The notes beneath the pieces were generated by a model. It was not told the origin of the DNA, did not search any database, and saw nothing but the letters and a program-made list of their open reading frames with translations. The translations under genes and the position numbers were made by a program. Positions 219 to 19,508 of a stretch of DNA of 22,248 nt are shown here, in pieces. Source of the stretch: a virus; IMG/VR virus record IMGVR_UViG_3300037339_000070, positions 1-22,248 of that record. One strand, 5' to 3'. Each line of letters opens with the position of its first letter. Position 1 is the stretch's first letter.

Positions 219-850
219 GCAACGACATAGTAGAGATTCTGAGGAAACATCAACTAAAGAGAATACAGAAGAGTGAGTCTTTTGCTGTTGCCAGAGAACG
301 GCATATGCAAAATAGAACTTCTTATGTTAAGTGCCTTTTATCTGGTAAAGACCCAAATATAGGAGTGCCTCTTCCAGTAGTGTTTATACGTAGTGTATAT
401 AAAAGATTATTGGAGTCCTATACGGGTCAGGCTAACTTATTAGAACAAGAAATGAATAAAAGTAGTATTGCCATGTGGACTCGTATAGAAGAAGCCAGAG
501 AGAAGGCAGGATGCGACGCCGAGAGATATATCAAAGCCCAGTTTGTTTGGTTTGATAAGGCATATGGTAAGGCTCCTAGTATTGAGCAGCTAGCAACCGC
601 TTCTGCTGTTGACCGTGCTATAGAGTTTGCTGGACCAACGGAAGGAAGAGTCTTGAGTAATGGACGTAAAGCTCCAATAACTAAAGCAGATATCTTTCGT
701 GCGAGTGAGAAGCTGTTGCAGTCTCTTATGGAAGCGCAAGGATGTAACAGGGAAGAGTTTTATAGTAAGTTTGTTTTGACTGGGCTATATTCCTTTCCAG
801 ATGAGTTTCTTAAGTTGGACCCTACATATCAAAGACTTATAAATAGATGA
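215..850 (+). CDS. Conserved-context phage protein of unknown function, upstream of helicase
   Basis: I do not recognise this 211-residue protein. It is soluble and rich in charged, probably helical segments. I see no signal peptide, membrane span, zinc motif or Walker motif. The start is well supported: AAGGAAG at 204-210 lies just upstream and the ATG overlaps the stop of the J-domain gene. The end overlaps the helicase gene by four bases (ATGA), so it is co-translated between a J-domain protein and a DnaB-type helicase. That position would suit a helicase loader or another replication accessory factor, but the sequence shows no AAA+ or DnaC-like motif, so this is context only. Confidence 0.8.
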   Translation: MSNDIVEILRKHQLKRIQKSESFAVARERHMQNRTSYVKCLLSGKDPNIGVPLPVVFIRSVYKRLLESYTGQANLLEQEMNKSSIAMWTRIEEAREKAGCDAERYIKAQFVWFDKAYGKAPSIEQLATASAVDRAIEFAGPTEGRVLSNGRKAPITKADIFRASEKLLQSLMEAQGCNREEFYSKFVLTGLYSFPDEFLKLDPTYQRLINR

Positions 851-2211
851 CCAGTTCAGGGGACCAGTTTGCTATAACTGAAGAATATCAAGCTAAAGTT
901 TTAGCTTATATGTTACAGAACCCGGAGTTCTGCACTATATCCGCTGCTCATCTAGCACCAGAACATTTCAATAATAAAGCTTTACAATGGTTCTTTCTGA
1001 CCATATCTGAAGCTAAGCACCCCTTGACCCCTATTACTCTTAGGGAAGAGTTGCTGGCTGCAGCAAGAGCAAAGGCCATAAAGAAAGAGGAACTAACTAA
1101 GTTTGTAAGTCTTTTTGATATTATTCAGGAAAGAGTAATACCTAGTGAAGAAGACTATATTAAAGATAAGATGGATACCTTTATCCGCACTCAGTCTGTT
1201 AGAAAGGCTTTGGTGGATACAGTTGAACTAGCTAAGAGTGAAAGTTGGGACGATATTGTCTCCCTAATGCAAGACGCAGTTGCTTCAGGTGTTCACTTTG
1301 GAGATAGTGGGTACGACTATTTAGGCACGGTAGAAGATCGTGTGTATGATAGAGCCCATCGTCGCGTTAAACGAAAGATTTCTACTGGCATACCAGAGTT
1401 GGATGCTCTCACATATGGGGGCATAAAGAACGGTCAGATGGGTCTTATAGTGGGTGGTACTGGCCGTGGTAAGTCTATATTCCTTCAGTGGTTAGCTAGA
1501 ACTGCTCTTATGCTCAATAAGAAAGTAGTATACTTTACCTTTGAGCTTCAATCTGATGAGATAGCTGACCGCATGGACTCTATGTTCTCTGTGGTTAAGC
1601 CACAGGAGCTAAATGACTTTCAAGAGGAAGTAGTAGAGAATATTACTAAACTAAAGAATACTTTTGGTAAGTCTTTAATAATACAACATTATCCAGCTGA
1701 CACTGCCACTATAAACACTCTTAAGGACTTTTGTAGAAGATTATCACAAGCTGGAATAGTGCCGGATCTAATCATTATTGATTATTTAGATCTAATGAAA
1801 CCACACAGAACGTATGGTGACGTTCACGCAGAGATTGATGCCATTACCAAGGGCATTGTTGGTTTTGCTGCAGAGTTTGATACAGCCATATATACCGCCA
1901 CTCAGTTGAATAGAGCTGGCTTAGTAGCAGACACACCTGACGAGGCTGGTATGGCTGGCTACATTGGTAAGCAATATCATGCAGATATGGTTATGTGGAT
2001 GGCTCAGACTCGCGAGGAGCGGGAGGACGAGCTAATGCGAATACTTATGTCTAAGAATCGTAACGGTAAAATGGGTACTATTACCCTTGAGACTAACTTC
2101 TCATATATGACATTTTATAGAGAGTCCGAAGTAACTGAAACTAAAGAAGTTTTAGTTGATACCCCAGCTGTCTCTCTTGAGGATGCTCTTTTATCTAGTA
2201 TTACTTCTTGA
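847..2211 (+). CDS. dnaB: DnaB-type replicative DNA helicase
   Basis: This 454-residue protein is close to the usual DnaB length. Residues ~8-150 resemble the DnaB N-terminal helical domain, and residues ~175-430 form a RecA-fold helicase core. Visible motifs are Walker A GGTGRGKS (203-210), FTFELQSDE with the catalytic Glu at 233, Walker B LIIIDYLDLM (308-317), ATQLNRAG (motif H3, ~355) and KNRNGKMG (motif H4, arginine-finger region). DnaB-family hexamers move 5'-3' on the lagging strand and unwind the fork while recruiting primase, which here is encoded next door. No intein interrupts the Walker A region, although DnaB is a frequent intein host. Start and upstream gene overlap as ATGA. Function is very likely; loader dependence cannot be seen. 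Confidence 0.95.
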   Translation: MTSSGDQFAITEEYQAKVLAYMLQNPEFCTISAAHLAPEHFNNKALQWFFLTISEAKHPLTPITLREELLAAARAKAIKKEELTKFVSLFDIIQERVIPSEEDYIKDKMDTFIRTQSVRKALVDTVELAKSESWDDIVSLMQDAVASGVHFGDSGYDYLGTVEDRVYDRAHRRVKRKISTGIPELDALTYGGIKNGQMGLIVGGTGRGKSIFLQWLARTALMLNKKVVYFTFELQSDEIADRMDSMFSVVKPQELNDFQEEVVENITKLKNTFGKSLIIQHYPADTATINTLKDFCRRLSQAGIVPDLIIIDYLDLMKPHRTYGDVHAEIDAITKGIVGFAAEFDTAIYTATQLNRAGLVADTPDEAGMAGYIGKQYHADMVMWMAQTREEREDELMRILMSKNRNGKMGTITLETNFSYMTFYRESEVTETKEVLVDTPAVSLEDALLSSITS

Positions 2212-2242
2212 CTATTTTCTACTTAGTATCTATAGCAAGTAA

Positions 2243-3328
2243 ATGTCTAATAGTTTAAGAATCCTTCGTAAGGTTCGTACAGAGTTTGACTTTCAGTCCT
2301 TTGTAGAACTTACGTTTCCTGTTAAATATGCCACTAACGGAGAGATAAGGATATGCTGTCCTAAATGTGGTGACACTAAGTTTAAATGCTATGTAAACAA
2401 TGATAAAAAGTACTTCAACTGCTTCAAGTGTGACTTTAACAGCGGCAACTATGATGTGTTCGACTTTGTAGCGGTTGGAGAAGGTATTACTCGTGCCCAG
2501 GCAATGCTTAGGTTAGCTAGGGAATATGCTGACGTAGCTAAAAGCTGGGAGGAGATCGTAGACTCAGCAGGAGTTCTAGAGGTTGAGGAAGATGAAGCAG
2601 GAGAGCCAAGCACTGTTAAGACTATAGAGAGTCTACCAGAGGGTGTTGTGCAGTTGTCTCTTGAGAAACCAGAAGAGCAAAAGCCCTTCTGGGACTACCT
2701 TTCTTCTAGAGGTTTGACAGATAAAGAAATATTGGACATTAGTACTCATTGTGTACCAGATGAGCGTGTATATCTGTACGATACCAATAGTAGACTAAGG
2801 GGAAACATAGGACACAGAATAGTTTTTCCTGTATATGGAAAAGGTAATAAGTTGGTGTCCTGGCTGGCTCGTTCTATAGATGGGGCTGAGCCTAAATATT
2901 TTAATGCCCCTGAGTCTGAGATTAATAGAACCTTATGGCCCTTTGCCCCTTGTAAGGGACACCTAGCTGTGTTGGTAGAGGGGGTTCTTGATGCTCTTGC
3001 AGTTCGTAGGGTTGGGTTTGGGGCGTATGCCACTTTTGGCAAGAAGATTTCTTATGATCAGGTTTCTTTACTAAAGGACTGGGGTATTACTTCAATAGTA
3101 TTATTCTGGGATAAGAAAGACTCCAAGAAAGAAATGATAAGAGCCATTGAATCATTGAAACTTCATTTTAAAGAAGTCCTAGTCCCAGACTTTACTATTT
3201 GGCCGAAAGACAGAGACTCTGGAGATACGCTTAGCTGGGAACCAGGTGCTGCTTTGTTGAAAGATATGTTGACTAATCATTTACTTGATGTTAACTCTTT
3301 AGAGTTCTCAACGTGGCAGTTACACTAA
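2243..3328 (+). CDS. DNA primase, zinc finger plus TOPRIM
   Basis: The 361-residue protein has an N-terminal zinc-binding module with paired CxxC motifs (C39-x2-C42 and C60-x2-C63), as in CHC2/T7-type primases. A TOPRIM region follows: LVEGVLDAL with the metal-binding Glu at ~246, and LFWDKKD (~288-293) as the acidic motif. It should synthesise short RNA primers for the lagging strand with the adjacent DnaB-type helicase. It is shorter than bacterial DnaG (~580) and lacks a clear C-terminal helicase-binding domain, as in many phage primases. Residues ~112-146, acidic and low in complexity, probably link the zinc and catalytic parts. An in-frame stop directly precedes ATG 2243, so the start is fixed, though the ribosome-binding site is weak (GCAAGTAA). 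The 31-base gap before it holds no clear signal. Confidence 0.93.
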   Translation: MSNSLRILRKVRTEFDFQSFVELTFPVKYATNGEIRICCPKCGDTKFKCYVNNDKKYFNCFKCDFNSGNYDVFDFVAVGEGITRAQAMLRLAREYADVAKSWEEIVDSAGVLEVEEDEAGEPSTVKTIESLPEGVVQLSLEKPEEQKPFWDYLSSRGLTDKEILDISTHCVPDERVYLYDTNSRLRGNIGHRIVFPVYGKGNKLVSWLARSIDGAEPKYFNAPESEINRTLWPFAPCKGHLAVLVEGVLDALAVRRVGFGAYATFGKKISYDQVSLLKDWGITSIVLFWDKKDSKKEMIRAIESLKLHFKEVLVPDFTIWPKDRDSGDTLSWEPGAALLKDMLTNHLLDVNSLEFSTWQLH

Positions 3329-3338
3329 AAGGAATATT

Positions 3339-3782
3339 ATGGAAGATATTATTGTACAGTTTTGTAGGACAAAACAAGAAGCAGTATTACCAGCCAAGGC
3401 GCATGACGACGATGCTGGTTTTGACCTTTATGCTGTTGAGAGATACGTGTACCTATACCCAAATGAAATTGTAACTTTAGATACAGGATTTACTATTGCT
3501 ATTCCTGATGGATATGTAGGGCTTGTGTGTTCTAGGTCAGGATTAGTAGCTAAGAACGGTATAGTTGTTCATAACTCTCCAGGTATTATTGATGCAGGAT
3601 ACAGGGGAGATTTAAAAGTAATATTGTACAACTCTTCTGATGATGTATTCACTGTTAATACAGGAGACCGAATAGCTCAGTTATTGATTCAAAAGGTATT
3701 ACCAGTTAGGGTTGTTGAAGTAGATAAGTTAGATTATACAACAACAAGGGGAGAAAAAGGCATTGGAAGCACAGGACGATAA
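3339..3782 (+). CDS. dut: dUTPase (dUTP pyrophosphatase)
   Basis: The protein has 147 residues, the standard size for trimeric dUTPases, and all five family motifs are present: motif 1 DDDAGFDLYA, motif 2 CSRSGLV, motif 3 with GIIDAGYRGDL (catalytic Asp and Tyr), motif 4 GDRIAQLLI, and the C-terminal glycine-rich motif 5 RGEKGIGSTGR that closes over the active site. It hydrolyses dUTP to dUMP and pyrophosphate, which keeps uracil out of phage DNA and supplies dUMP for thymidylate synthesis. AAAGGA six bases before the ATG supports the start. The last 20 bases overlap the next gene. I see nothing atypical. Confidence 0.97.
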   Translation: MEDIIVQFCRTKQEAVLPAKAHDDDAGFDLYAVERYVYLYPNEIVTLDTGFTIAIPDGYVGLVCSRSGLVAKNGIVVHNSPGIIDAGYRGDLKVILYNSSDDVFTVNTGDRIAQLLIQKVLPVRVVEVDKLDYTTTRGEKGIGSTGR

Positions 3783-4515: not shown

Positions 4516-7500
4516 ATGCTTGAGGGATGGGACTATGACGTTATTAATCAAGTTCCTTTTTCAAAGAAGAAGGGCCTTTCTGATTCTAACTTGTATATAG
4601 TAAATACCCAACAGGAGTGGGATACTTTCTTTGGTCTTCTAATGACCAAGAAGAAAGTAGTGTGCGACACTGAGACCACTGGCTTTGAGTATTACTCTAA
4701 TGATCGTATTATTGGTATGTCCTTTGGTTGGGACAAAGACCATTTTTACGTTCCTGTTCGTCATATAGCTTCTTTTACTGGTGGTGAACCTCCTCCTCAG
4801 TTGGACATGGATGTTATTCGTCCAGACCTTCAGAGGTTCTTTGCTAGAAAAGACGTATTTACTACTTGGCATAATTTCAAGTTTGATGCCCATTTCTACA
4901 AAGCTGATAATATAGATATTCTAACTCCTATTCATGATACAGTTATTCTTTGGCACTTGTATGACGAGAACGCCCCTAAAGCTCTCAAAGTAATATCATC
5001 TGGTTGGGTTGATGATATGAAGAAAAGACATAAGGGTCTTTTTGGTAAAGCAGCCGTAGTTAAAGAGAAGGAAGTTAGTGACTGGCGTTCTCAAGAAGCT
5101 AAGGCTAGAAGAGACCATTATAAACATCTAATACTAGCTAGAGCTGATGAGCTAAAGTTTGATATAGCTCATCAAGGTAAAACTAAAATAGCTTTAAAGA
5201 GATGGATTATAGAAAACGAGCTATCAGGTCATTCTTACAGAGAGGCTAAGAAAGATGATATTCATTATGGGTATGTCCCCATACCTTTGATGACTGAATA
5301 TGCAGCTATGGATACTTTCCTTACCCAAGCTGTATTTGACAAAACCATGAAGGAGTTACTTTTAACTGAAGAGTTAGTTAAAGTTTATACTAATGAGATA
5401 AAGCTTTCTAAGGTTCTCTTTCATACAGAGGAGCTTGGTGCTCGAATAGATGCACAGTATCTTGTCAGGCTGGAACAAGAACTTACCAATGAGTGTGATG
5501 CATATAAGCTGATGATTTATCAACAGCTAGGTAGTAATATCAACTTAAAGTCAGCTGACCAACTTTCTACTGCATTTGAAAAGCAAGGTATTACTCTTAC
5601 CGAGAAGACCAAGGTTGGAAAGAATGTAGTTAATAAGAAAGTATTAGATAAACTAGCTTTGGATCATCCTGTAGTAAAGGATATTTTGTACCTTAGAGGT
5701 ACAGAGAAGATCCTGAATACATATGTTAAGGGTATACAAGGCAACTTAGATATACGTTCATGTATTCACATGAACTTCAATCAGAATGTTACTACAGGCA
5801 GAATGTGTTTAGTAGCAGGAACCAAGATACAAATGCCTTGTGATAGGGTACAGTTTCCTAACGGCAAGAACATTGAGGACGTGAAAAAGGGAGACTTGGT
5901 TTATTGCTATGATGAAGATGGTATGTTGCACTTACGCAAGGTTCTATGGTCGGGCTCTCGTGGCGTGAAGAATGTAATACGTCTTAACTGGAAAGGTCAG
6001 GGCAATAAGAATACTGGGAGTATTACTCTAACTCCAGACCATCGTGTTAGGTTGTTCGATGGGTCTTGGGTTGAAGCAAAGGATTTGAATGAAAATGATA
6101 GAATAATGTCCCTATCTGTTAATGTAAAACCTACTGGATATATTCATCTATATGGGAGGCATTCTTTTGATATTAGAGAGAATATCTTTGTTGCTAATCA
6201 AACTGGACTTATTGGTGAAGTAATACACCACAAAGATGGAAATAAAGTAAATAATGACCCCTCTAACTTAGAAGGTATGTCAAAACAAGAACATTCTAAG
6301 CACCATACAGATATTCTAGATGTAGAGGAACTAAGGGAAAGAGGAAGTAGATTACACACTAAAGAAGCTATAGAAGCTCAACGAAGGTCAATCCGAAGTG
6401 GACCTGAGAATGATTCTTGGAAATCAATATCTAAAAGTACTTTACTACGTTGGGCAGCCATGTTCCATGGTAAGCCTACTGAGATAATGAAGTTTAGTGG
6501 TATGGATTATGAAGTTCTTATGAGAAAATATGATCTATATAATATAGATCTTAAGGACATAAGAAAACGTTATAGTGATAAAGTAGGATACATTTCTCCT
6601 AAAAGAGTAAAAGAAGCTCTTTTGTTAACTCAACCAGAATCTTACTCAAGTTTGGGGGTAGGATATTATAGATTTAAAGAGTTAAGAGATTTCTATGGTT
6701 TAAGTTCAAATCATACAGTGGAGTCGATAGAAGTTCTTAATATATCATTACCAGTATATGATTTAGAGGTAGAAGAGTATAATAACTTTATTGCTAATGA
6801 ATTATGTGTGCATAATAGTTGCTCTAATCCGAACGTTCAAAATGTACCTCGTGGTGATACTCGTATTAGGAAAGCCTTTATTTGCCCAGAAGAGTATTAC
6901 TATATCTTTGCAGACTATTCTCAGATTGAGGTAAGACTTACTGCTCATTACTCAGAGGATCCAATTATGTTGGATGCCTATGCTCGTAATCAAGATATTC
7001 ATACTCGTACCGCTTGCGAAATGTTTGATCTACACTATGATGAAATGGTAGAAGTATTAAAGAATGAGAAGCATGAAAACTTTAATATGTTTGATAGCTT
7101 TCGTTCAACAGCCAAAACTATAAACTTTGGTATCATCTACGGGGTAGGTGCTCCAGGTTTGTCTCAACAAATAGCTAGACCAGAACGTTTTAAAGATGCA
7201 TTAGAGAGTGAGTGGATTGGCGCTTGCCAAGATTACATCAATCAGTACTTTTCTAAGTATAGGTATGTAAAACGATTTATTAGTAGGTGTAGGCGTGAGG
7301 TTAAAAAGGACGCTCAGATAGTAAACTATTTTGGTAGGATTCGTCATTTGCCCTCTATAAATGCCCGTAAGATAATGGGGGAAGACTTTAACTGGCTATC
7401 AGGAAAAGCCGAACGGCAAGCTGCTAACTTCGTGATTCAGTCTACTGCAGCTGACGTGTTTAAGTTTGCAACTGTCCGGGTGGCTGAAGAAGTGTTTAAA

Positions 7501-7686
7501 GATACTCAATCTTATGTTGTAAACCTTGTGCACGATGAGATTCAGTCTTACGTTCACAAAGATGAATTACACTTGCTAAATAAGAAAAGGGATGTTATGG
7601 AAGACTTTAACTTCTTAGTCCCATTGAAGGTAGACTTTGCTTTTTCTACCTCTAGTTGGGCAGATAAACAAAAACTCAAAGGATAA
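4516..7686 (+). CDS. polA: Family-A DNA polymerase with 3'-5' exonuclease, intein-containing
   Basis: The frame encodes 1056 residues, of which 431-767 are an intein, leaving a mature enzyme of about 719. The exonuclease domain shows CDTETTGF (D51, E53), HNFKFDAHF (D124) and YAAMD (Y262, D266), so proofreading should be active. No 5'-3' nuclease domain is present, as in T7-type phage polymerases. The polymerase domain has TGRM/SCSNPNVQNVPR, motif A FADYSQIE (D800), motif B R863-x3-K867-x3-F871-x3-Y875 and motif C HDE at 1006-1008. The Phe at 871 corresponds to E. coli Phe762. It is the likely replicative polymerase of this phage. The stop is four bases upstream of the next gene's ATG. The start has only a weak GTGAG upstream. 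Confidence 0.97.
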   Translation: MLEGWDYDVINQVPFSKKKGLSDSNLYIVNTQQEWDTFFGLLMTKKKVVCDTETTGFEYYSNDRIIGMSFGWDKDHFYVPVRHIASFTGGEPPPQLDMDVIRPDLQRFFARKDVFTTWHNFKFDAHFYKADNIDILTPIHDTVILWHLYDENAPKALKVISSGWVDDMKKRHKGLFGKAAVVKEKEVSDWRSQEAKARRDHYKHLILARADELKFDIAHQGKTKIALKRWIIENELSGHSYREAKKDDIHYGYVPIPLMTEYAAMDTFLTQAVFDKTMKELLLTEELVKVYTNEIKLSKVLFHTEELGARIDAQYLVRLEQELTNECDAYKLMIYQQLGSNINLKSADQLSTAFEKQGITLTEKTKVGKNVVNKKVLDKLALDHPVVKDILYLRGTEKILNTYVKGIQGNLDIRSCIHMNFNQNVTTGRMCLVAGTKIQMPCDRVQFPNGKNIEDVKKGDLVYCYDEDGMLHLRKVLWSGSRGVKNVIRLNWKGQGNKNTGSITLTPDHRVRLFDGSWVEAKDLNENDRIMSLSVNVKPTGYIHLYGRHSFDIRENIFVANQTGLIGEVIHHKDGNKVNNDPSNLEGMSKQEHSKHHTDILDVEELRERGSRLHTKEAIEAQRRSIRSGPENDSWKSISKSTLLRWAAMFHGKPTEIMKFSGMDYEVLMRKYDLYNIDLKDIRKRYSDKVGYISPKRVKEALLLTQPESYSSLGVGYYRFKELRDFYGLSSNHTVESIEVLNISLPVYDLEVEEYNNFIANELCVHNSCSNPNVQNVPRGDTRIRKAFICPEEYYYIFADYSQIEVRLTAHYSEDPIMLDAYARNQDIHTRTACEMFDLHYDEMVEVLKNEKHENFNMFDSFRSTAKTINFGIIYGVGAPGLSQQIARPERFKDALESEWIGACQDYINQYFSKYRYVKRFISRCRREVKKDAQIVNYFGRIRHLPSINARKIMGEDFNWLSGKAERQAANFVIQSTAADVFKFATVRVAEEVFKDTQSYVVNLVHDEIQSYVHKDELHLLNKKRDVMEDFNFLVPLKVDFAFSTSSWADKQKLKG
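5806..6816 (+). mobile_element. Intein in DNA polymerase, with HNH endonuclease domain
   Basis: This is a 337-residue in-frame insertion (residues 431-767) between TGRM and SCSNPNVQNVP of the polymerase, a junction that matches uninterrupted PolA proteins (TGRLSS-DPNLQNIP) exactly once it is removed. Splicing blocks are visible. Cys1 begins block A (CLVAGTKI). Block B is TPDH (506-509). Block F is VYDLEVEEYNNFIA. Block G is ELCVHN, giving the penultimate His and terminal Asn, followed by Ser+1. The central part contains VIHHKDGNKVNNDPSNLE and a distal HSKHH, an HNH endonuclease signature, in place of the commoner LAGLIDADG type. It should self-splice after translation, and the HNH domain could drive homing into intein-less polymerase genes. 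All key splicing residues are present, so I expect it to be functional. Confidence 0.95.
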
Positions 7687-13697: not shown

Positions 13698-14071
13698 TGG
13701 CTACTAAAACAGTTAAAGAGACCACAAAAGAGTTTATAATAATTGGTGACGCTATTCAAAAGTCATTACATTTACGTATTACTAGACATGATAATGAGAT
13801 TAATAAGTGTCTAACTACCGTTGCTGACCTTCTCCTTTCTAAAAGTAATGGAGATATCGAGCAGTTGGCTTCACAAGCTGCTGCAGGTATGCTGGCTCTA
13901 ACCTCTCAGAAGCATCTAACTTCCGACGCTTTGTTAATTAAGACGCAACTAGACCGAGCGTCATATCTTTCAGAGGAGAGATTAGACTTAACTTGTATCG
14001 CTAAAAACCTATTCTCTAGTGAATATTATAGAGTACTTTTAGATGAAGCCATAAGATATGGATTGGTTTAA
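13697..14071 (+). CDS. Hypothetical helical protein
   Basis: I do not recognise this 124-residue protein. It appears entirely alpha-helical, with many Leu and Ala residues (TTVADLLLSKS, QAAAGMLALTS), and it lacks cysteine pairs, P-loop or membrane spans. The start overlaps the sbcC stop as TAATG, and the end overlaps the upstream of two candidate starts of the next gene. It is the first of three small unknown genes between the recombination genes and the nucleotide kinase. Only its place in the operon suggests an early, non-structural role. Confidence 0.78.
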   Translation: MATKTVKETTKEFIIIGDAIQKSLHLRITRHDNEINKCLTTVADLLLSKSNGDIEQLASQAAAGMLALTSQKHLTSDALLIKTQLDRASYLSEERLDLTCIAKNLFSSEYYRVLLDEAIRYGLV

Positions 14072-14354
14072 GATGTCTAAAGCTACAGAAACAAAGCGTA
14101 TTAAGGACCTAGAAAAAGAGGTTTATAGGCTTTTGTCTAAAGTAGACAGCTATAATGAGGTCGTAACTGAGTTTAGTTCTAATATTGAACAAATACGTGA
14201 CCTAGAACTAGAGATAGTACACAAGCTCTCTTCTGTCCACAGTAAGCTAGAGTCTTTAATTTCTAACTATAGTGTCTTGGGTGTTATTTTATATTCTTCT
14301 TTTGTTATTCTAGCTACTCTTATTATATATAGCCTATTGGAAGGTTGTAAATAA
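14058..14354 (+). CDS. Coiled-coil protein with a C-terminal membrane anchor
   Basis: The protein has 98 residues from ATG 14058, or 93 from ATG 14073, which begins MSKATETK and avoids the overlap; the choice is uncertain because neither has a strong ribosome-binding site. Residues ~10-70 form a charged heptad-like helix (RIKDLEKEVYRLLSKVDSYNEV), and residues ~72-93 are a hydrophobic segment (LGVILYSSFVILATLIIYSLL) followed by EGCK. The architecture is tail-anchored: a cytoplasmic coiled coil held to the inner membrane. Such a protein could tether phage components to the membrane. It is too unlike classic holins (single C-terminal span, long soluble part) to call it one, and no lysis gene is near. 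Confidence 0.75.
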   Translation: MDWFKMSKATETKRIKDLEKEVYRLLSKVDSYNEVVTEFSSNIEQIRDLELEIVHKLSSVHSKLESLISNYSVLGVILYSSFVILATLIIYSLLEGCK

Positions 14355-14611
14355 TGTCCTACAATCCTGTATTTGAGTGTATGCAACGTAAGCAAGAACT
14401 CATAGATAATGAAAAGCCTATTAGAGAGCCAAGACTTATACCAAAGTCCTCGGCTGCGTTGCTAGTAAGCACAGATAAGGAAGACGGGCATTTGATCTTT
14501 AGGATTGTTTATCCAGAAGGCACAAAGGAAGATACGCCCCCTGTTGAGGCTGTTTCAAAGGCTCTTGCCTTTATTATAGACAGTACTTCATTGATTGTTG
14601 AGGAAGATTAA
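14354..14611 (+). CDS. Hypothetical small protein
   Basis: This is an unknown protein of 85 residues, joined to both neighbours by TAATG-type overlaps. The middle (SSAALLVSTDKEDGHLIFRIVYPEG) reads as beta strands, and the C-terminal part (VEAVSKALAFIIDSTSLIVEED) as a helix and strand with an acidic end. No cysteines form a zinc site and no catalytic motif is visible. The tight overlaps and codon use like its neighbours support a real gene, probably co-translated with the nucleotide kinase that follows. Confidence 0.75.
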   Translation: MSYNPVFECMQRKQELIDNEKPIREPRLIPKSSAALLVSTDKEDGHLIFRIVYPEGTKEDTPPVEAVSKALAFIIDSTSLIVEED

Positions 14612-15447
14612 TGCATATAGTTGGTATTACTGGACATGCCGGGGCGGGTAAGGATGAAGTAGCTGGTCGTTTAGCAGAAAAGTATGGGTACCTTCAAATA
14701 GCCCTAGCTGACCCTATTAAGCGTTTTGGCTTAAATGTATTTGGCTTTGATGTAATACAACTATGGGGACCTGCCAAGAATACCTTTGACCCATTATTTA
14801 ACGAATGTAATATTCGTTCTTCTGGTGTGTTATTCGAGCCAGGCTGTCAGCTAGGGTCAGTTAAAAGGGTGTGTGATATGGGATGGGGAGACGCCGCTGT
14901 GCGTCTCTCCTCATATGGTCCTAAATGGATAGAAGAGTTAGTTCCACTTGAAGATAGAGAAGAAGCTCTTAAAAAGCTATACTTTTGGTTTGCTTCATTG
15001 GGACATCATTATCCACAACTTAGCCCAAGAATCTGTCTACAACATTTGGGAACTGAGTGGGGTAGAAATGTTATCAATAAAGATATATGGATAAGTAAGT
15101 TTATAGATACCGCTCAGCATATTTTAGATGGATACCAATATAGTAGAGAAGTAGGTCTTACGGCGGGCAAAGAAGCTCAGTTGCCTAATGGTATTGTGGT
15201 TTCTGACGTGCGTTTTGCTAATGAAATAGAACATATTCGTAAAGTTGGTGGCAAAGTAATACGTGTAACAAGAGAGTCCGCTGATAAGAAAGCTAATAGT
15301 TTAGGCATTATGAAACATGCCTCTGAGGTCGAACAGGCTGAGTTTGCTGATAATATGTTTGATTGTATACTTAAAAATGATAAAACTATTAAAGATTTGT
15401 TTAGTTCAGTAGACATTGTAGCTGCTGCGTTTAAGGGGAATAAGTAA
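14611..15447 (+). CDS. Deoxynucleoside monophosphate kinase (T4 gp1-like)
   Basis: This 278-residue P-loop kinase has Walker A GITGHAGAGKDE (residues ~5-16), followed by IALADPIKR, a pattern of phage dNMP kinases. Further features are RICLQHLGTEWGRNVINKDIW in the middle and IVVSDVRFANEIEHIRKVGGKVIRV near residues 190-216, the conserved DVRF-NE motif of this family. It phosphorylates deoxynucleoside monophosphates to diphosphates for phage DNA synthesis and works with the dUTPase encoded upstream. At 278 residues it is a little longer than T4 gp1 (241), with an insertion around residues 40-110. Overlaps (TAATG) link it to both neighbours. Confidence 0.88.
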   Translation: MHIVGITGHAGAGKDEVAGRLAEKYGYLQIALADPIKRFGLNVFGFDVIQLWGPAKNTFDPLFNECNIRSSGVLFEPGCQLGSVKRVCDMGWGDAAVRLSSYGPKWIEELVPLEDREEALKKLYFWFASLGHHYPQLSPRICLQHLGTEWGRNVINKDIWISKFIDTAQHILDGYQYSREVGLTAGKEAQLPNGIVVSDVRFANEIEHIRKVGGKVIRVTRESADKKANSLGIMKHASEVEQAEFADNMFDCILKNDKTIKDLFSSVDIVAAAFKGNK

Positions 15448-15773
15448 TGGAAAAAGAGACATTAGAGGATGAAGAGGGACTATCAGATGAGCAGCTTGAG
15501 GCGTCTCATAGGGTGTACCTATCTGAAATTATGAGACAACTAACTGAGTCTGATAGATTTAATAGATTCTTTAAAGTTAACTATGAAGTTCAAGTACACC
15601 TTGATAAACAGAATAAGAGTTACGATATACGTTTAATTGAGCGTCCTCCAGAGTTAGCCGCTCAGGTTCTTAAGGATTTAGTTGTGGAGCACTCTAAGGA
15701 CCACTCACCCTCGGTAGTTTTACCTACAGCTGCTGATATTGCCGCCCTCAAGGGAGATGTAAATAAGAAATGA
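15447..15773 (+). CDS. Hypothetical acidic protein
   Basis: This is an unknown protein of 108 residues with an acidic N-terminus (EKETLEDEEGLSDEQLEA). A mixed segment in the middle has alternating charged and aliphatic residues (FKVNYEVQVHLDKQNKSYDIRLIERP) that reads as two beta strands. The last third is helical. I see no cysteines, membrane segment or known motif. It starts in the stop of the kinase gene (TAATG) and overlaps the next gene by four bases. Function is not inferable. Confidence 0.75.
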   Translation: MEKETLEDEEGLSDEQLEASHRVYLSEIMRQLTESDRFNRFFKVNYEVQVHLDKQNKSYDIRLIERPPELAAQVLKDLVVEHSKDHSPSVVLPTAADIAALKGDVNKK

Positions 15774-15985
15774 ATAATGAAGAGTTTTGTCAAATAGTAG
15801 AATGGGAAGGCTGGCTGTATGTATTGCTAGAGGTAGACTCCTCTGAGATAGAGGACGACGCAATTAGCGAAGCTTTGTCTGACGTTCAGACAGCTTTTAA
15901 ATACTTAAGAAGTATTGTCCCAGATATAGAGTTAGATATAGATGATGAGGATTCCGACTTAGAGTTGTTAGACTTTGGAGACTGA
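15770..15985 (+). CDS. Hypothetical very acidic small protein
   Basis: The product is a 71-residue protein with a net charge near -20. Its C-terminal half is dominated by Asp and Glu (PDIELDIDDEDSDLELLDFGD), and the N-terminal half looks like one helix-strand unit with two Trp residues (VEWEGWLYVLLEV). The start overlaps the previous gene (ATGA), and the end overlaps the TTG start of the endonuclease-like gene by 11 bases. Small, highly acidic phage proteins sometimes act as DNA mimics against host nucleases or nucleoid proteins; that is only a possibility here. Confidence 0.7.
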   Translation: MNNEEFCQIVEWEGWLYVLLEVDSSEIEDDAISEALSDVQTAFKYLRSIVPDIELDIDDEDSDLELLDFGD

Positions 15986-17636
15986 AGTTAAAATTGGGAA
16001 CAAGTATGGTTCTTGGTTAGTACAGGAAGGCCCCACACGGGGTAAAAAGTATTACTGTGTATGTTTGTCTTGTGGAAAGACAGCTAAGTATGTTAAAGGC
16101 TATGACCTATTAAATGGTCGTACAACTACTTGTAAAAGCTGTGCTACTAAGCTGCGCAGAGAAACTCACGGTATGTCTAACTCTTTGGAATATAATACGT
16201 GGGTTCACCTAAATCAGCGTTGCTATAATCCAAAGAATAAAGACTACAAGAACTATGGTGCTAGAGGCATAGAGGTTTATCCTCTATGGAGAACTAGTTT
16301 TGAGTCCTTTTATATGATGGTAGGTCCTCGTCCCAATCCTACCGATACAATTGAAAGAATTGACTATAATAAGGGCTACTTTCCTGGGAACGTAAAATGG
16401 GCTTCAAGACAAGATCAGGTTTTAAACAAATGCTTTCATCCCGAAACGCCTCTGTTGCTACATTCAGGTGGAGTAAAGCTTGTTAAAGACATAGTAGTAG
16501 GGGATAAGTTAATGGGACCAGACTCATTGCCCAGAACAGTGCAAGAAGTTACTACAGGCTATGGAGAACTTTATAGTATAGAACAGAAGCGAGGAATGCC
16601 TTATGTTGCTAATGGTTCTCATGTTCTTGTATTAAGAAATCGTCATTCTGAAACAGAAATTGAATGTTCTGTTGATGATTATTTGAATAGGTTTAAATCT
16701 TTTAAGTATGATCATCAACAGTTTTCTGTAGAAGTACATTATCCTGAGCGCTATACTCCTTTAGACCCTTATTTGTTTGGGTTATGGCTTGGGGATGGTA
16801 GAAAGGCTACTACATGTTTTCGTATTATAACAATGGATCAAGAAATAGTGGAGTTTTTATCTAGTTTTGCTGTTTCTAACAATCTTAAGTTAAGTAAGTA
16901 TGAGAAACTTGGAAAATGTAACGAATGGGGATTAGTGAAAACCTCAGGCAGGACTAATCCTTTGTTAGCTCCTCTCAGAGAGTCCGTTAAATCCTGGGAT
17001 TCTTATATGTTTAACTCTACTGAGAATAGATTAAAGTTCTTAGCAGGGATAATGGATAGTGATGGATATTGGTCTGATGATCACCACCACTATATTCTGA
17101 ATTGGAAACATAAAGAGTGGATACATAAGGTGTATTTGTTAGCTAGGTCTTTGGGGTTTGCTTCTTCCCCTCCTCGCTCTCGTAATAAAGGGCAATATTA
17201 TCAGTTATTGATAAGCAGAGTTAGTGTTGCTGGCGCTCCTCCATGTTTGGTACCTCACAAGAAGCCTAGGACCTATTCAAAATACAGAAGTCTACGTTCT
17301 CCTATTAATATTACTAGTGTAGGAATTGATAAGTTTTATGGTATTACTGTTGGTGAAGATAATAGGTTTTTATTAGAAGACTGTACTGTAGTTCATAATA
17401 GTGATAATATATACCTTGAAATAGGTGGAGTTTCTAAGACTGTTTCTCAATGGGCTGAAGAGGCTCCAGTTTCTGGCTTTACTATATACAAGAGAATTAA
17501 TAGAGGATGGCTAGAAAAGTATGGTGCATATAAAACAGTATTTACCCCCTCAGCAGCCAGCTTGGGGACAGCAGCCTCCTTGGGTAGTAATACAACCCAA
17601 GATGACGAAGAAGCAGAGGAAGATGATCCAAGCTAA
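15975..17636 (+). CDS. HNH/AP2-type homing-endonuclease-like protein interrupted by an intein
   Basis: The frame gives 553 residues. Residues 153-475 are an intein, so the spliced product is about 230. The N-terminal extein carries a zinc ribbon (C30, C33 with C53, C56), then HGMSNSLEYNTW, QRCYNPKNKDYKNYGARGI, GPRPNPTDTIERIDYNKGY and NVKWASRQDQ. This is the pattern of a widespread phage family annotated as HNH/AP2-domain homing-endonuclease-like proteins (usual form DRID-GNY-PGNCRWAT). The C-terminal extein (GGVSKTVSQWAEEAPVSGFTIYKRINRGW) is the family's helix-turn-helix end. The only plausible start is TTG 15975, since a stop lies just upstream and no other start precedes the zinc ribbon. 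Acidic residues at the extreme end (DDEEAEEDD) overlap the next gene. Activity of the extein is unproven. Confidence 0.85.
   Translation: METEVKIGNKYGSWLVQEGPTRGKKYYCVCLSCGKTAKYVKGYDLLNGRTTTCKSCATKLRRETHGMSNSLEYNTWVHLNQRCYNPKNKDYKNYGARGIEVYPLWRTSFESFYMMVGPRPNPTDTIERIDYNKGYFPGNVKWASRQDQVLNKCFHPETPLLLHSGGVKLVKDIVVGDKLMGPDSLPRTVQEVTTGYGELYSIEQKRGMPYVANGSHVLVLRNRHSETEIECSVDDYLNRFKSFKYDHQQFSVEVHYPERYTPLDPYLFGLWLGDGRKATTCFRIITMDQEIVEFLSSFAVSNNLKLSKYEKLGKCNEWGLVKTSGRTNPLLAPLRESVKSWDSYMFNSTENRLKFLAGIMDSDGYWSDDHHHYILNWKHKEWIHKVYLLARSLGFASSPPRSRNKGQYYQLLISRVSVAGAPPCLVPHKKPRTYSKYRSLRSPINITSVGIDKFYGITVGEDNRFLLEDCTVVHNSDNIYLEIGGVSKTVSQWAEEAPVSGFTIYKRINRGWLEKYGAYKTVFTPSAASLGTAASLGSNTTQDDEEAEEDDPS
16431..17399 (+). 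mobile_element. Intein with LAGLIDADG endonuclease, inserted in an endonuclease-like gene
   Basis: This is a 323-residue in-frame insertion. It begins at Cys153 (CFHPETPLLL, block A) after QDQVLNK and ends KFYGITVGEDNRFLLEDCTVVHN, with block F and block G, the penultimate His and terminal Asn, before Ser+1 (SDNIYLEI). Block B is ANGSHVLVL. Two LAGLIDADG motifs are present, LFGLWLGDG (267-275) and FLAGIMDSDG (355-364), each with its acidic metal-binding residue, so it is a full homing-endonuclease intein. Removal joins QDQVLNK to SDNIYLEI, restoring the usual continuous Q--NR-NN---Y region of the host family. The sequence shows no disabling changes, so splicing and homing should both be possible. 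Confidence 0.93.
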
Positions 17637-18072
17637 TAGTAAGATAGATACTGTTGTATGCCATGCCTGTGCTGGATACTTTACCCCTTCTGGTCTTAGA
17701 ATGCATATGGGAAGTGAAAAGTGCAGGTTGGCAACAATAGCTAAACCTATGAAGGAAGCTGTTACTAAGGAATATAGTAAAAGACGGGCTATAGGAAAGC
17801 ACCCAATAGTTAAGAACGTGGCCTTAGCTCTTAAAAGAAGGAACCTAGAGACGTTATGCGCTCTTGAGCTGGCACCTACAAAACTTATGCACACCGACAT
17901 TGACTGTTCTATTCTAGAACAGTATTGGGTCAGTGAGTGGGTATACCGTATCTGGGAGAGATACAATAAAAGTGGATATACCAGACAGGCTTATGTACTT
18001 TTAGAGAACCTTAGCACTTTGTCTGTACAAGATAGAGAAAGTGAGATAGGTTTGCTTTTGTTGCAGATGTAG
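17602..18072 (+). CDS. C2HC zinc-finger protein of unknown function
   Basis: I place the start at ATG 17602 (MTKKQRKMIQANS), giving 156 residues. ATG 17623 is an alternative with AGAGGA very close upstream. A longer reading from 17521 adds only a Pro/Gln-rich frame-shifted copy of the preceding gene's tail. The N-terminus is basic and is followed by a single zinc finger, CHACAGYFTPSGLRMHMGSEKC (C-x2-C-x12-H-x5-C), of the C2HC type that usually binds nucleic acid or a protein partner. The rest is basic and helical (KEYSKRRAIGKHP, ALKRRNLETL) with a Trp/Tyr-rich end (QYWVSEWVYRIWERY). It sits beside two nuclease-like genes, so a DNA-linked role is plausible. Confidence 0.75.
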   Translation: MTKKQRKMIQANSKIDTVVCHACAGYFTPSGLRMHMGSEKCRLATIAKPMKEAVTKEYSKRRAIGKHPIVKNVALALKRRNLETLCALELAPTKLMHTDIDCSILEQYWVSEWVYRIWERYNKSGYTRQAYVLLENLSTLSVQDRESEIGLLLLQM

Positions 18073-18080
18073 AGGGTGAT

Positions 18081-18584
18081 ATGGTAGATTCTCGGGATAA
18101 AGGGGCTAGGGGGGAGCGTAAAGCTCTTAAACTATTGGAGAAGTGGTGGGGCTCTGACTTTGCCAAGACGCCCAGCTCAGGGGGGTTCAAGACCAAGAAG
18201 TTTAGGCAGGAATGGAACTCAGAGGGGGACATTGTAACCCCAGATAAGACCTTTCCTTTTGCTGTTGAGGTTAAATGGTGGGAAGGCTGGTCCTTAGACC
18301 AGATTCTAACAGCCCCCAAAACGAGTATATGGAGCTGGTGGGAGCAAGCTAAAAGGGAGACTTCAGAGGGTAGATTTACCCTTTTAGTCTTTAAAAAGAA
18401 CCGTCAGGACTTCTTTATGATGACTAAAGAAGAGGAGAAGCATACCCCTTACCAGGCAGAGTTCACAAAATCTGCTAGAATACGAGTCTTGGACAGACAA
18501 GAGGGCTTTGTCTATGTTAGGCTATTTAAGGATTTGTTGAAGGAACCCACCGAGCTATGGGCACGAAAACTAAGAAAGAGCTAG
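18081..18584 (+). CDS. PD-(D/E)XK nuclease, probable Holliday-junction-resolvase type
   Basis: This 167-residue protein has the compact layout of a PD-(D/E)XK nuclease: an N-terminal helix with KGARGERKALKLL (the conserved Glu), a GD dyad in EGDIVTPD (the metal-binding Asp), and the E-x-K element in FAVEVKWWEGW. A serine-glycine run (AKTPSSGGFKTKKF) lies between the helix and the core, as in Hjc-like archaeal/phage resolvases. In a phage with RecA and SbcCD it would be expected to cut branched DNA before packaging, as T4 gp49 does; the exact substrate is not readable from sequence. GAGGGTGAT stands just before the ATG. It overlaps the small zinc ORF that follows by 28 bases. Confidence 0.78.
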   Translation: MVDSRDKGARGERKALKLLEKWWGSDFAKTPSSGGFKTKKFRQEWNSEGDIVTPDKTFPFAVEVKWWEGWSLDQILTAPKTSIWSWWEQAKRETSEGRFTLLVFKKNRQDFFMMTKEEEKHTPYQAEFTKSARIRVLDRQEGFVYVRLFKDLLKEPTELWARKLRKS

Positions 18585-18664
18585 AGGCTCAGATACCTAA
18601 ATGCCCTGCTTGTGGTAAGATTCTACTTATATGTAAGTGCCAGGAGAACCAGATCGAGAAATGA
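18557..18664 (+). CDS. 35-residue zinc-knuckle micro-protein
   Basis: The frame ATG 18557 to TGA 18662-18664 encodes a lysine-rich N-terminus (MGTKTKKELEAQ), then a compact cysteine cluster: IPKCPACGKILLICKCQ, with C-x2-C and C-x-C, a minimal zinc knuckle. AAGGA at 18540-18544 is a possible, somewhat distant, ribosome-binding site. The end overlaps the epimerase-like gene start as ATGA, the standard junction in this operon. The organised cysteines and the ATGA junction make a real gene likely despite the small size. Function is unknown; such knuckles often bind nucleic acid or a partner protein. Confidence 0.55.
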   Translation: MGTKTKKELEAQIPKCPACGKILLICKCQENQIEK

Positions 18665-19434
18665 GTGTGAAAGGTCGCACTAGATTCTCTGTGTCTGGGA
18701 CGCACCCCTTACTGGGTCTTGTAAGAAATCACTTTATACATAAAGGGTTTGCTCTAGTACCCTGGGACGACCAGTATGACTTTTGTCTAATTGGTGCAGA
18801 GATAGAGAAAGAGCGGCATCCTCCTTTAGCGCAGCTAGAGTTACAAAAGATGCAGGTAGGCTACAAGCCTGTATTACTTTTGTCGTCTTCTAAGGTATAT
18901 TGCGGCTATCAGGATAAAGCTGTTCTGAATGAGAGCATAAGTTGTATAGACGACAGATTTACAGAGGTTGCCACTAGAAGTGCTGCAGTTTATGCTATAG
19001 CAGCTGAGCATCTATTCTGTTTGGATAGTTGTCTTGCCATTCGCCCCTTTAACGTATATGGCCCGGACATAACGTGGGGTATAGTGTATAATACTATCGG
19101 TGCTTCACGCAGAAAGGAGAACATTTTATATTCTCCTACTGTTTATCCCCACTTCACCACTTCCTTTATCCATCAAGATGATTTTCTAAAGGCTATTGAT
19201 AAGCTTTTAGAAAGAAAGGCTAAAGGTGTGTTCAATGTAGGCTCTCCTGAGAGAGCTAGCTATGTATACTTAGTTCAGAACGTTTGGAAGTTTGTTAATG
19301 GGGACTTACTTTTGCCTACTTTATTAGTAAGTAATACTTATTGTGATGGCTATCCTTCTCTGGAAAAGCTAGAGCAACAAATAGAATGGCTCCCTAAAAC
19401 GTCGTATAGATCTGGTGTATTTAAAATGCTATAG
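18661..19434 (+). CDS. SDR-type sugar epimerase/dehydratase-like protein, active-site residues degenerate
   Basis: The ATGA start at 18661 gives 257 residues; a GTG at 18637 would only lengthen it into the preceding gene. The fold resembles NAD-dependent epimerases: FSVSGTHPLLGLVRNHFIHKGF at the N-terminus corresponds to the GxxxxxG nucleotide loop, PVLLLSSSKVYCG to the catalytic Ser strand, LAIRPFNVYGP to the RPFNVYGP motif, and SFIHQDDFLKAI with GVFNVGSPE to the C-terminal segments. The Y-x-x-x-K dyad expected before AAEHLF is not there: the region reads TRSAAVYAIAAE, which aligns Ala at both positions. The central region is also short against the usual ~310 residues. It may have lost catalysis, or act on another substrate. 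It follows the nuclease genes and precedes the promoter. Confidence 0.8.
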   Translation: MSVKGRTRFSVSGTHPLLGLVRNHFIHKGFALVPWDDQYDFCLIGAEIEKERHPPLAQLELQKMQVGYKPVLLLSSSKVYCGYQDKAVLNESISCIDDRFTEVATRSAAVYAIAAEHLFCLDSCLAIRPFNVYGPDITWGIVYNTIGASRRKENILYSPTVYPHFTTSFIHQDDFLKAIDKLLERKAKGVFNVGSPERASYVYLVQNVWKFVNGDLLLPTLLVSNTYCDGYPSLEKLEQQIEWLPKTSYRSGVFKML

Positions 19435-19440
19435 TATTGC

Positions 19441-19490
19441 TTGTGTGGTAATTACATACATGGTATACTAATTCATAAATATGGTATAAT
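19441..19490 (+). promoter_or_regulatory. Tandem extended -10 promoter elements before the virion module
   Basis: The 74-base gap between the epimerase-like gene and the next CDS holds two elements of the form TG-N-TATAxT: TGGTATACT (19461-19469) and TGGTATAAT (19482-19490). The word ATGGTATA recurs exactly 21 bases apart, two helical turns. The first has TTGTGT at 19441-19446 as a possible -35, with 17 bases between the hexamers. The second has no -35 but a perfect extended -10. The gene downstream starts at 19509. This is the only gap with such a signal and it marks the start of the structural genes, so it is a credible sigma-70-type promoter. The doubled motif could also be a regulator site. 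Confidence 0.6.
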
Positions 19491-19508
19491 AGGTGTTTCT
19501 GGGAATAT

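Follow-up and report, generated by a model that had tools for sequence, protein, structure and literature searches.

Is the nuclease gene at this locus a selfish element that has itself been invaded by a second one, or is it an ordinary phage gene that has acquired an intein? The stretch of DNA analyzed here (22,248 nucleotides, "the window") stems from an uncultured tailed phage; it is a 22-kb fragment taken from an IMG/VR record. It contains an ORF of 553 codons (15975..17636, + strand) that encodes an HNH-type protein, the outer protein, with a LAGLIDADG intein in its midst. The initial annotation had considered the outer gene to be probably selfish as well, giving two nested mobile layers.

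Gene context and relatives

The window contains replication and recombination genes, namely those for DnaB-like protein, primase, dUTPase, PolA, RecA, SbcCD, and dNMP kinase. PolA and dNMP kinase were named by profile or family matches, and the other replication genes were read from ORF translations. The outer gene is located between the dNMP kinase gene and a gene for a PDDEXK_15/RusA-like resolvase (18081..18584, + strand), with PolA, RecA, and SbcC upstream. It starts with TTG and overlaps the end of a conserved ORF of 71 amino acids (15770..15985, + strand), which is without functional assignment and is syntenic in close relatives. A conserved Cys/His ORF follows (17638..18072, + strand) and is syntenic in nine close relatives. 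As listed, this ORF spans 17521-18072 and shares 116 bases with the C-extein; its homology to the relatives starts only near 17638, and the true start is thus probably there or just upstream. When 50,697 phage records were searched at the DNA level, nothing matched positions 14000-19500 of the window.

The resolvase gene is also syntenic in relatives and served as the query with which these were collected from IMG/VR. Nine close relatives, including the contig L005, and one distant relative, L084, were obtained. Some of the nine are nearly identical to one another.

Boundaries and motifs of the intein

The precursor was divided into an N-extein (residues 1-152, 15975..16430), an intein of 323 amino acids running from Cys1 to Asn323 (precursor residues 153-475, 16431..17399), and a C-extein (residues 476-553, 17400..17633), all on the + strand. 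The N-extein consists of a Cys-rich N-terminal part followed by a beta-beta-alpha-metal (HNH-type) core, and the C-extein of a strand pair, a helical (HTH-like) segment, and an acidic tail. Splicing is predicted to yield a protein of 230 amino acids and 26.1 kDa. In an AlphaFold prediction of the whole precursor the intein region was poorly modeled, giving no usable intein model.

The intein was delimited and typed by Pfam, by alignments to phage inteins and to PI-SceI, and by the empty site in relatives. Pfam matches comprised Hom_end_hint (1.4e-16), Hom_end (2e-8, above the cut-off), and LAGLIDADG_3 (4.7e-5). Helicase inteins of Klebsiella, Vibrio, and Salmonella phages aligned over 100% of its length with ~33% identity and E-values down to 3e-43, and a sequence search of the PDB returned PI-SceI at 1.9e-16. 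In the PI-SceI alignment Cys1, the terminal His-Asn, and the Asp residues of both LAGLIDADG motifs were matched, and Lys187 and Lys277 stood opposite the catalytic residues Lys301 and Lys403 of PI-SceI. The same alignment located block B (GSHV with intein His64, 16614..16625), the first LAGLIDADG motif (LFGLWLGDG with intein Asp122, 16773..16799), and the second (LAGIMDSDG with intein Asp211, 17040..17066), all on the + strand. Block G (VVHN) followed by Ser+1 (17388..17402, + strand) was read from the sequence as the splice junction and agrees with the empty-site alignment. The class-1 features, Cys1, the block-B His, the C-terminal His-Asn, and Ser+1, are thus all present and in frame, as are the features of a homing endonuclease, i.e. 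two LAGLIDADG motifs with acidic residues plus Lys187 and Lys277. Judged by its sequence, the insert is a real and intact class-1 LAGLIDADG intein that retains the residues for splicing and for endonuclease activity. The initial annotation had described a complete intein with Cys1, HN, Ser+1, and both LAGLIDADG motifs, and the Pfam matches, the phage inteins, and the PI-SceI alignment agree with that description.

The empty site

The syntenic contig L005, from the same phage clade, encodes an uninterrupted outer protein of 219 amino acids that is 68% identical to the spliced one. The alignment continues across the junction (QVLNK/SDN), and window positions 16158-16430 and 17397-17551 align to adjoining stretches of L005. 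In all nine close relatives the extein halves abut with zero gap (NK/SDN). In the distant L084 the outer gene occupies the corresponding position, and its extein matches end no more than two codons apart. The intein was absent from the outer gene in all nine close relatives and in L084. Around the insertion site 84-89 of 120 bases are common to the window and the close relatives, and the latter already have Ser at position +1. The junction originally placed at Lys152/Ser476 is therefore correct, and the intein-less homologues with the same junction that had been called for as a check do exist. The alleles with and without the intein, found in syntenic phages, constitute a natural pair with which homing and a splicing-gated nuclease can be tested.

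Predicted fold and putative active site of the outer protein

PHROGs names the outer family HNH endonuclease, in keeping with the original assignment of the split gene to an HNH-nuclease family. Pfam contained no model for the family and gave no HNH match, which makes the assignment as a nuclease an indirect one. An AlphaFold model of the L005 protein, built with 42 sequences, reached a pLDDT of 87 and showed a strand-strand-helix core at residues 125-150 (strands 125-128 and 140-143, helix 145-150; 16347..16424, + strand). The best PDB match of the model was PacI, ranking first both in Foldseek (E 0.3) and by Z score (6.2 over 75 residues, 2.6 A); each of these values is weak alone. PacI is an HNH enzyme with the site His42-Arg93-Tyr100-Asn113, in which Arg replaces the usual His (PMC3765158), and its metal ligands are Asp and Asn (PMC4081073). 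From the end of the alignment, where model residue 156 pairs with chain residue 121, we inferred a constant offset of 35. In this inferred register Arg128 (16356-16358), Tyr135 (16377-16379), and Gln148 (16416-16418), all on the + strand, would correspond to Arg93, Tyr100, and Asn113 of PacI, and Glu127 is placed opposite Asp92. PacI Asn is thus represented by Gln in the outer family, and PacI Asp by Glu in this clade. The columns of Arg128, Tyr135, and Gln148 were computed to be invariant in 42 of 42 homologues. The model and this motif register make it probable that the outer protein belongs to the HNH nucleases of the PacI-like beta-beta-alpha-metal type.

Asn151 (16425-16427) is invariant as well and adjoins the junction residue Lys152. 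The intein is inserted directly after Lys152, where the core helix ends, and parts the core from the C-terminal segment.

Two labels of the initial annotation fared less well. "AP2-type" was not upheld, as Pfam found no AP2 domain in 42 family members and the C-terminal part was modeled as strands followed by helices. As to "zinc-ribbon", Cys28, Cys30, Cys33, Cys53, and Cys56 are conserved in the clade, but a ribbon was not confirmed, and residues 2-54 weakly resemble SH3/Tudor-like barrels.

Behavior of the outer gene in the clade

A selfish endonuclease gene is expected to be optional among close relatives. The outer gene was found in 10 of 10 contigs (the window and its nine close relatives), in one syntenic place and in one copy each; neither an empty locus nor decay of the gene occurred among these 10. 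Even L084, with a PDDEXK protein of only 47% identity, has the gene in this place. Its mean pairwise identity of 0.79 was the highest among six genes compared, and its divergence correlated with that of its neighbors (r = 0.81-0.93). A dN/dS of ~0.08 for the most informative pair (L076/L082) indicates purifying selection. Being universal, syntenic, single-copy, neighbor-tracking, and constrained, the outer gene behaves as a resident phage gene in this lineage and shows no sign of mobility in this clade. The intein consequently sits where inteins usually do, at a conserved position of a nucleic-acid enzyme that is itself conserved. Even an HNH gene that carries the label "homing endonuclease-like" can thus be stable and conserved in phages.

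The extein alone matched 949 phage records; the intein, searched separately as had been proposed, led to the phage helicase inteins. Given this wide spread, the outer gene likely descended from a homing endonuclease, and fixation in the clade is compatible with an earlier homing history.

Proposed pathway and alternative explanations

We consider it probable, reasoning from sequence, that the locus consists of a vertically inherited, resident phage gene for a PacI-like HNH nuclease and, within it, a class-1 LAGLIDADG intein that is competent for homing. After translation, the intein would excise itself via Cys1, Asn323, and Ser+1, joining Lys152 to Ser153 of the spliced protein. Splicing would complete the nuclease, as the active-site helix with Gln148-Asn151 would otherwise stay cut off from the C-terminal segment. 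The intein endonuclease would cut intein-less alleles in co-infecting relatives, and repair would copy the intein in. It would target the outer gene because the site is conserved and not because the gene is mobile. The outer nuclease itself probably serves phage DNA metabolism.

The nested arrangement proposed initially would make the outer gene an active, free-standing homing endonuclease gene with the intein as its parasite. It draws on the wide but patchy distribution of the family in phages (the 949 records), on the PHROGs name, on a NUMOD3 motif in a divergent family member, and on the fact that other phage HNH families, e.g. IPA-HNH, are counted among the homing endonucleases (PMC10448857). 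The universal presence of the gene at one place, its single copy, its tracking of the neighboring genes, and its low dN/dS speak against it, and we regard this explanation as unlikely. If it were true, the locus would be a parasite-in-parasite system with protein splicing gating another mobile element. A variant in which the outer gene still homes at a low rate, while the intein rides on it and gates its homing, appears very unlikely. It is quite unlikely, too, that the intein is retained for conditional protein splicing, as a means to postpone nuclease activation during infection or to make it dependent on conditions. With the junction four residues past the presumed metal-ligand position Gln148, the core is split from the C terminus, and the unspliced precursor is probably inactive. 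Inactivity of the precursor is, however, usual for any intein in an active site, and all known relatives lack the intein, which is more in line with a parasite than with an indispensable regulator. Splicing might, as first suggested, determine when the nuclease becomes active.

Two further explanations concern the integrity of either partner. Block B of the intein reads Asn-Gly-Ser-His and not the usual Thr-x-x-His, as might be seen in a decayed, non-splicing intein that leaves its host gene inactive. One intact frame of 553 codons, the preserved nucleophiles, the preserved catalytic acidic and lysine positions, and the full-length similarity to other phage inteins make such decay most improbable. 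The outer protein, for its part, could be an HNH-derived DNA-binding regulator, since in all 42 sequences Arg stands where HNH enzymes canonically have His, and Pfam detects no HNH domain. PacI has Arg at this position yet cuts DNA (PMC3765158, PMC4081073). The matching Tyr is invariant too, and a site invariant throughout the family favors catalysis; a regulator is therefore improbable. A resident nuclease gene carrying an intact intein remains the preferred explanation.

Precedents and related systems

No record among the 50,697 phage records covered 80% or more of the whole precursor. Scans for the site itself used exact patterns, by which divergent cases can be missed. The pattern W-A-[ST]-x3-Q-x2-N-x-C occurred at 63 loci in IMG/VR without an intein, these being intein-less family members with a natural Cys and otherwise chance matches. 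The intein-start pattern had three matches in 84,980 GTDB genomes, all by chance, and the intein-end pattern at this site, verified on the window, had none in IMG/VR. In the open-access literature, no description of an HNH gene interrupted by an intein was found. Thus, the outer HNH family appears new as an intein host, no precedent having been found in the phage records or in the exact-site scans of IMG/VR and GTDB, and a probable PacI-type HNH nuclease joins the list of intein hosts.

Inteins in conserved phage nucleic-acid enzymes, including a RecB/Cas4-like nuclease, have been documented (PMC5050341). The inteins of the latter in mycobacteriophage cluster C1 (e.g. Megamind gp211, contig L115) are likewise LAGLIDADG inteins in a phage nuclease gene, are also inserted at a catalytic-looking motif (VELKS), and have RecA-like and RusA-like genes nearby. 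Their host is, however, a PD-(D/E)XK nuclease with a different fold and a different insertion motif, and the inteins are only ~25% identical to the one described here, in a partial alignment. Mycobacteriophage matches named "HNH endonuclease" were rejected as precedents, as they are actually such RecB/Cas4-like proteins with an intein; a "homing endonuclease" of Vibrio phage 1.009.O proved to be a helicase with an intein. Megamind gp211 (L115, 2039-3802) is itself called "HNH endonuclease" in many C1 phages, a name that looks wrong for a protein that lacks an HNH match, carries a LAGLIDADG intein, and has been described as a RecB/Cas4-like nuclease (PMC5050341).

Nearest to the intein by sequence are the DOD inteins of phage helicases (Klebsiella JD001/MEW1, Salmonella ER18, Vibrio 1.009.O), which match it over the full length and with the same block order but differ in their helicase host and share only ~33% identity. 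PI-SceI, the yeast VMA1 intein, has the class-1 architecture, Cys1, HN, both LAGLIDADG Asp residues, and both Lys positions in common with it and differs in host, size (454 amino acids), and DNA target. R.PacI resembles the outer protein in the core fold, as modeled, and, in the proposed register, in the Arg-Tyr motif replacing the canonical His; unlike the outer protein, it is a restriction enzyme without an intein, has Asn instead of Gln, and lacks an equivalent C-terminal helical segment. Among RNA elements, there are known cases of nuclease ORFs with a splicing element nested in them (PMC4801052). In Chaetomium mS1247 a group II intron resides inside the homing endonuclease ORF of a group I intron, so that there, too, a splicing element interrupts a nuclease ORF and can govern its expression. 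That system is mitochondrial, depends on RNA splicing, and has a true intron homing endonuclease as its host ORF.

Other inteins and minor observations

The SbcC-like gene in contigs L083 and L086 changes frame at one point (1408-1409 in L086), a possible frameshift. A second intein, of the Hint plus HNH_3 type, is located in the window at 5806-6816 (PolA residues 431-767) within the PolA gene (4516-7686); six related contigs lack it at the corresponding position. PolA of contig L107 (IMGVR_UViG_3300009702_000045, 271-3423), from a relative, has a LAGLIDADG intein of its own, distinct from this one and inserted elsewhere (RSVAK/C...HN/TINFGIIYG). Upstream of position 271 in L107 there is an in-frame TGA near the N terminus of PolA, due to either an assembly error or decay. 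Since the L107 intein occupies a separate site, at least three intein sites exist in this phage clade.
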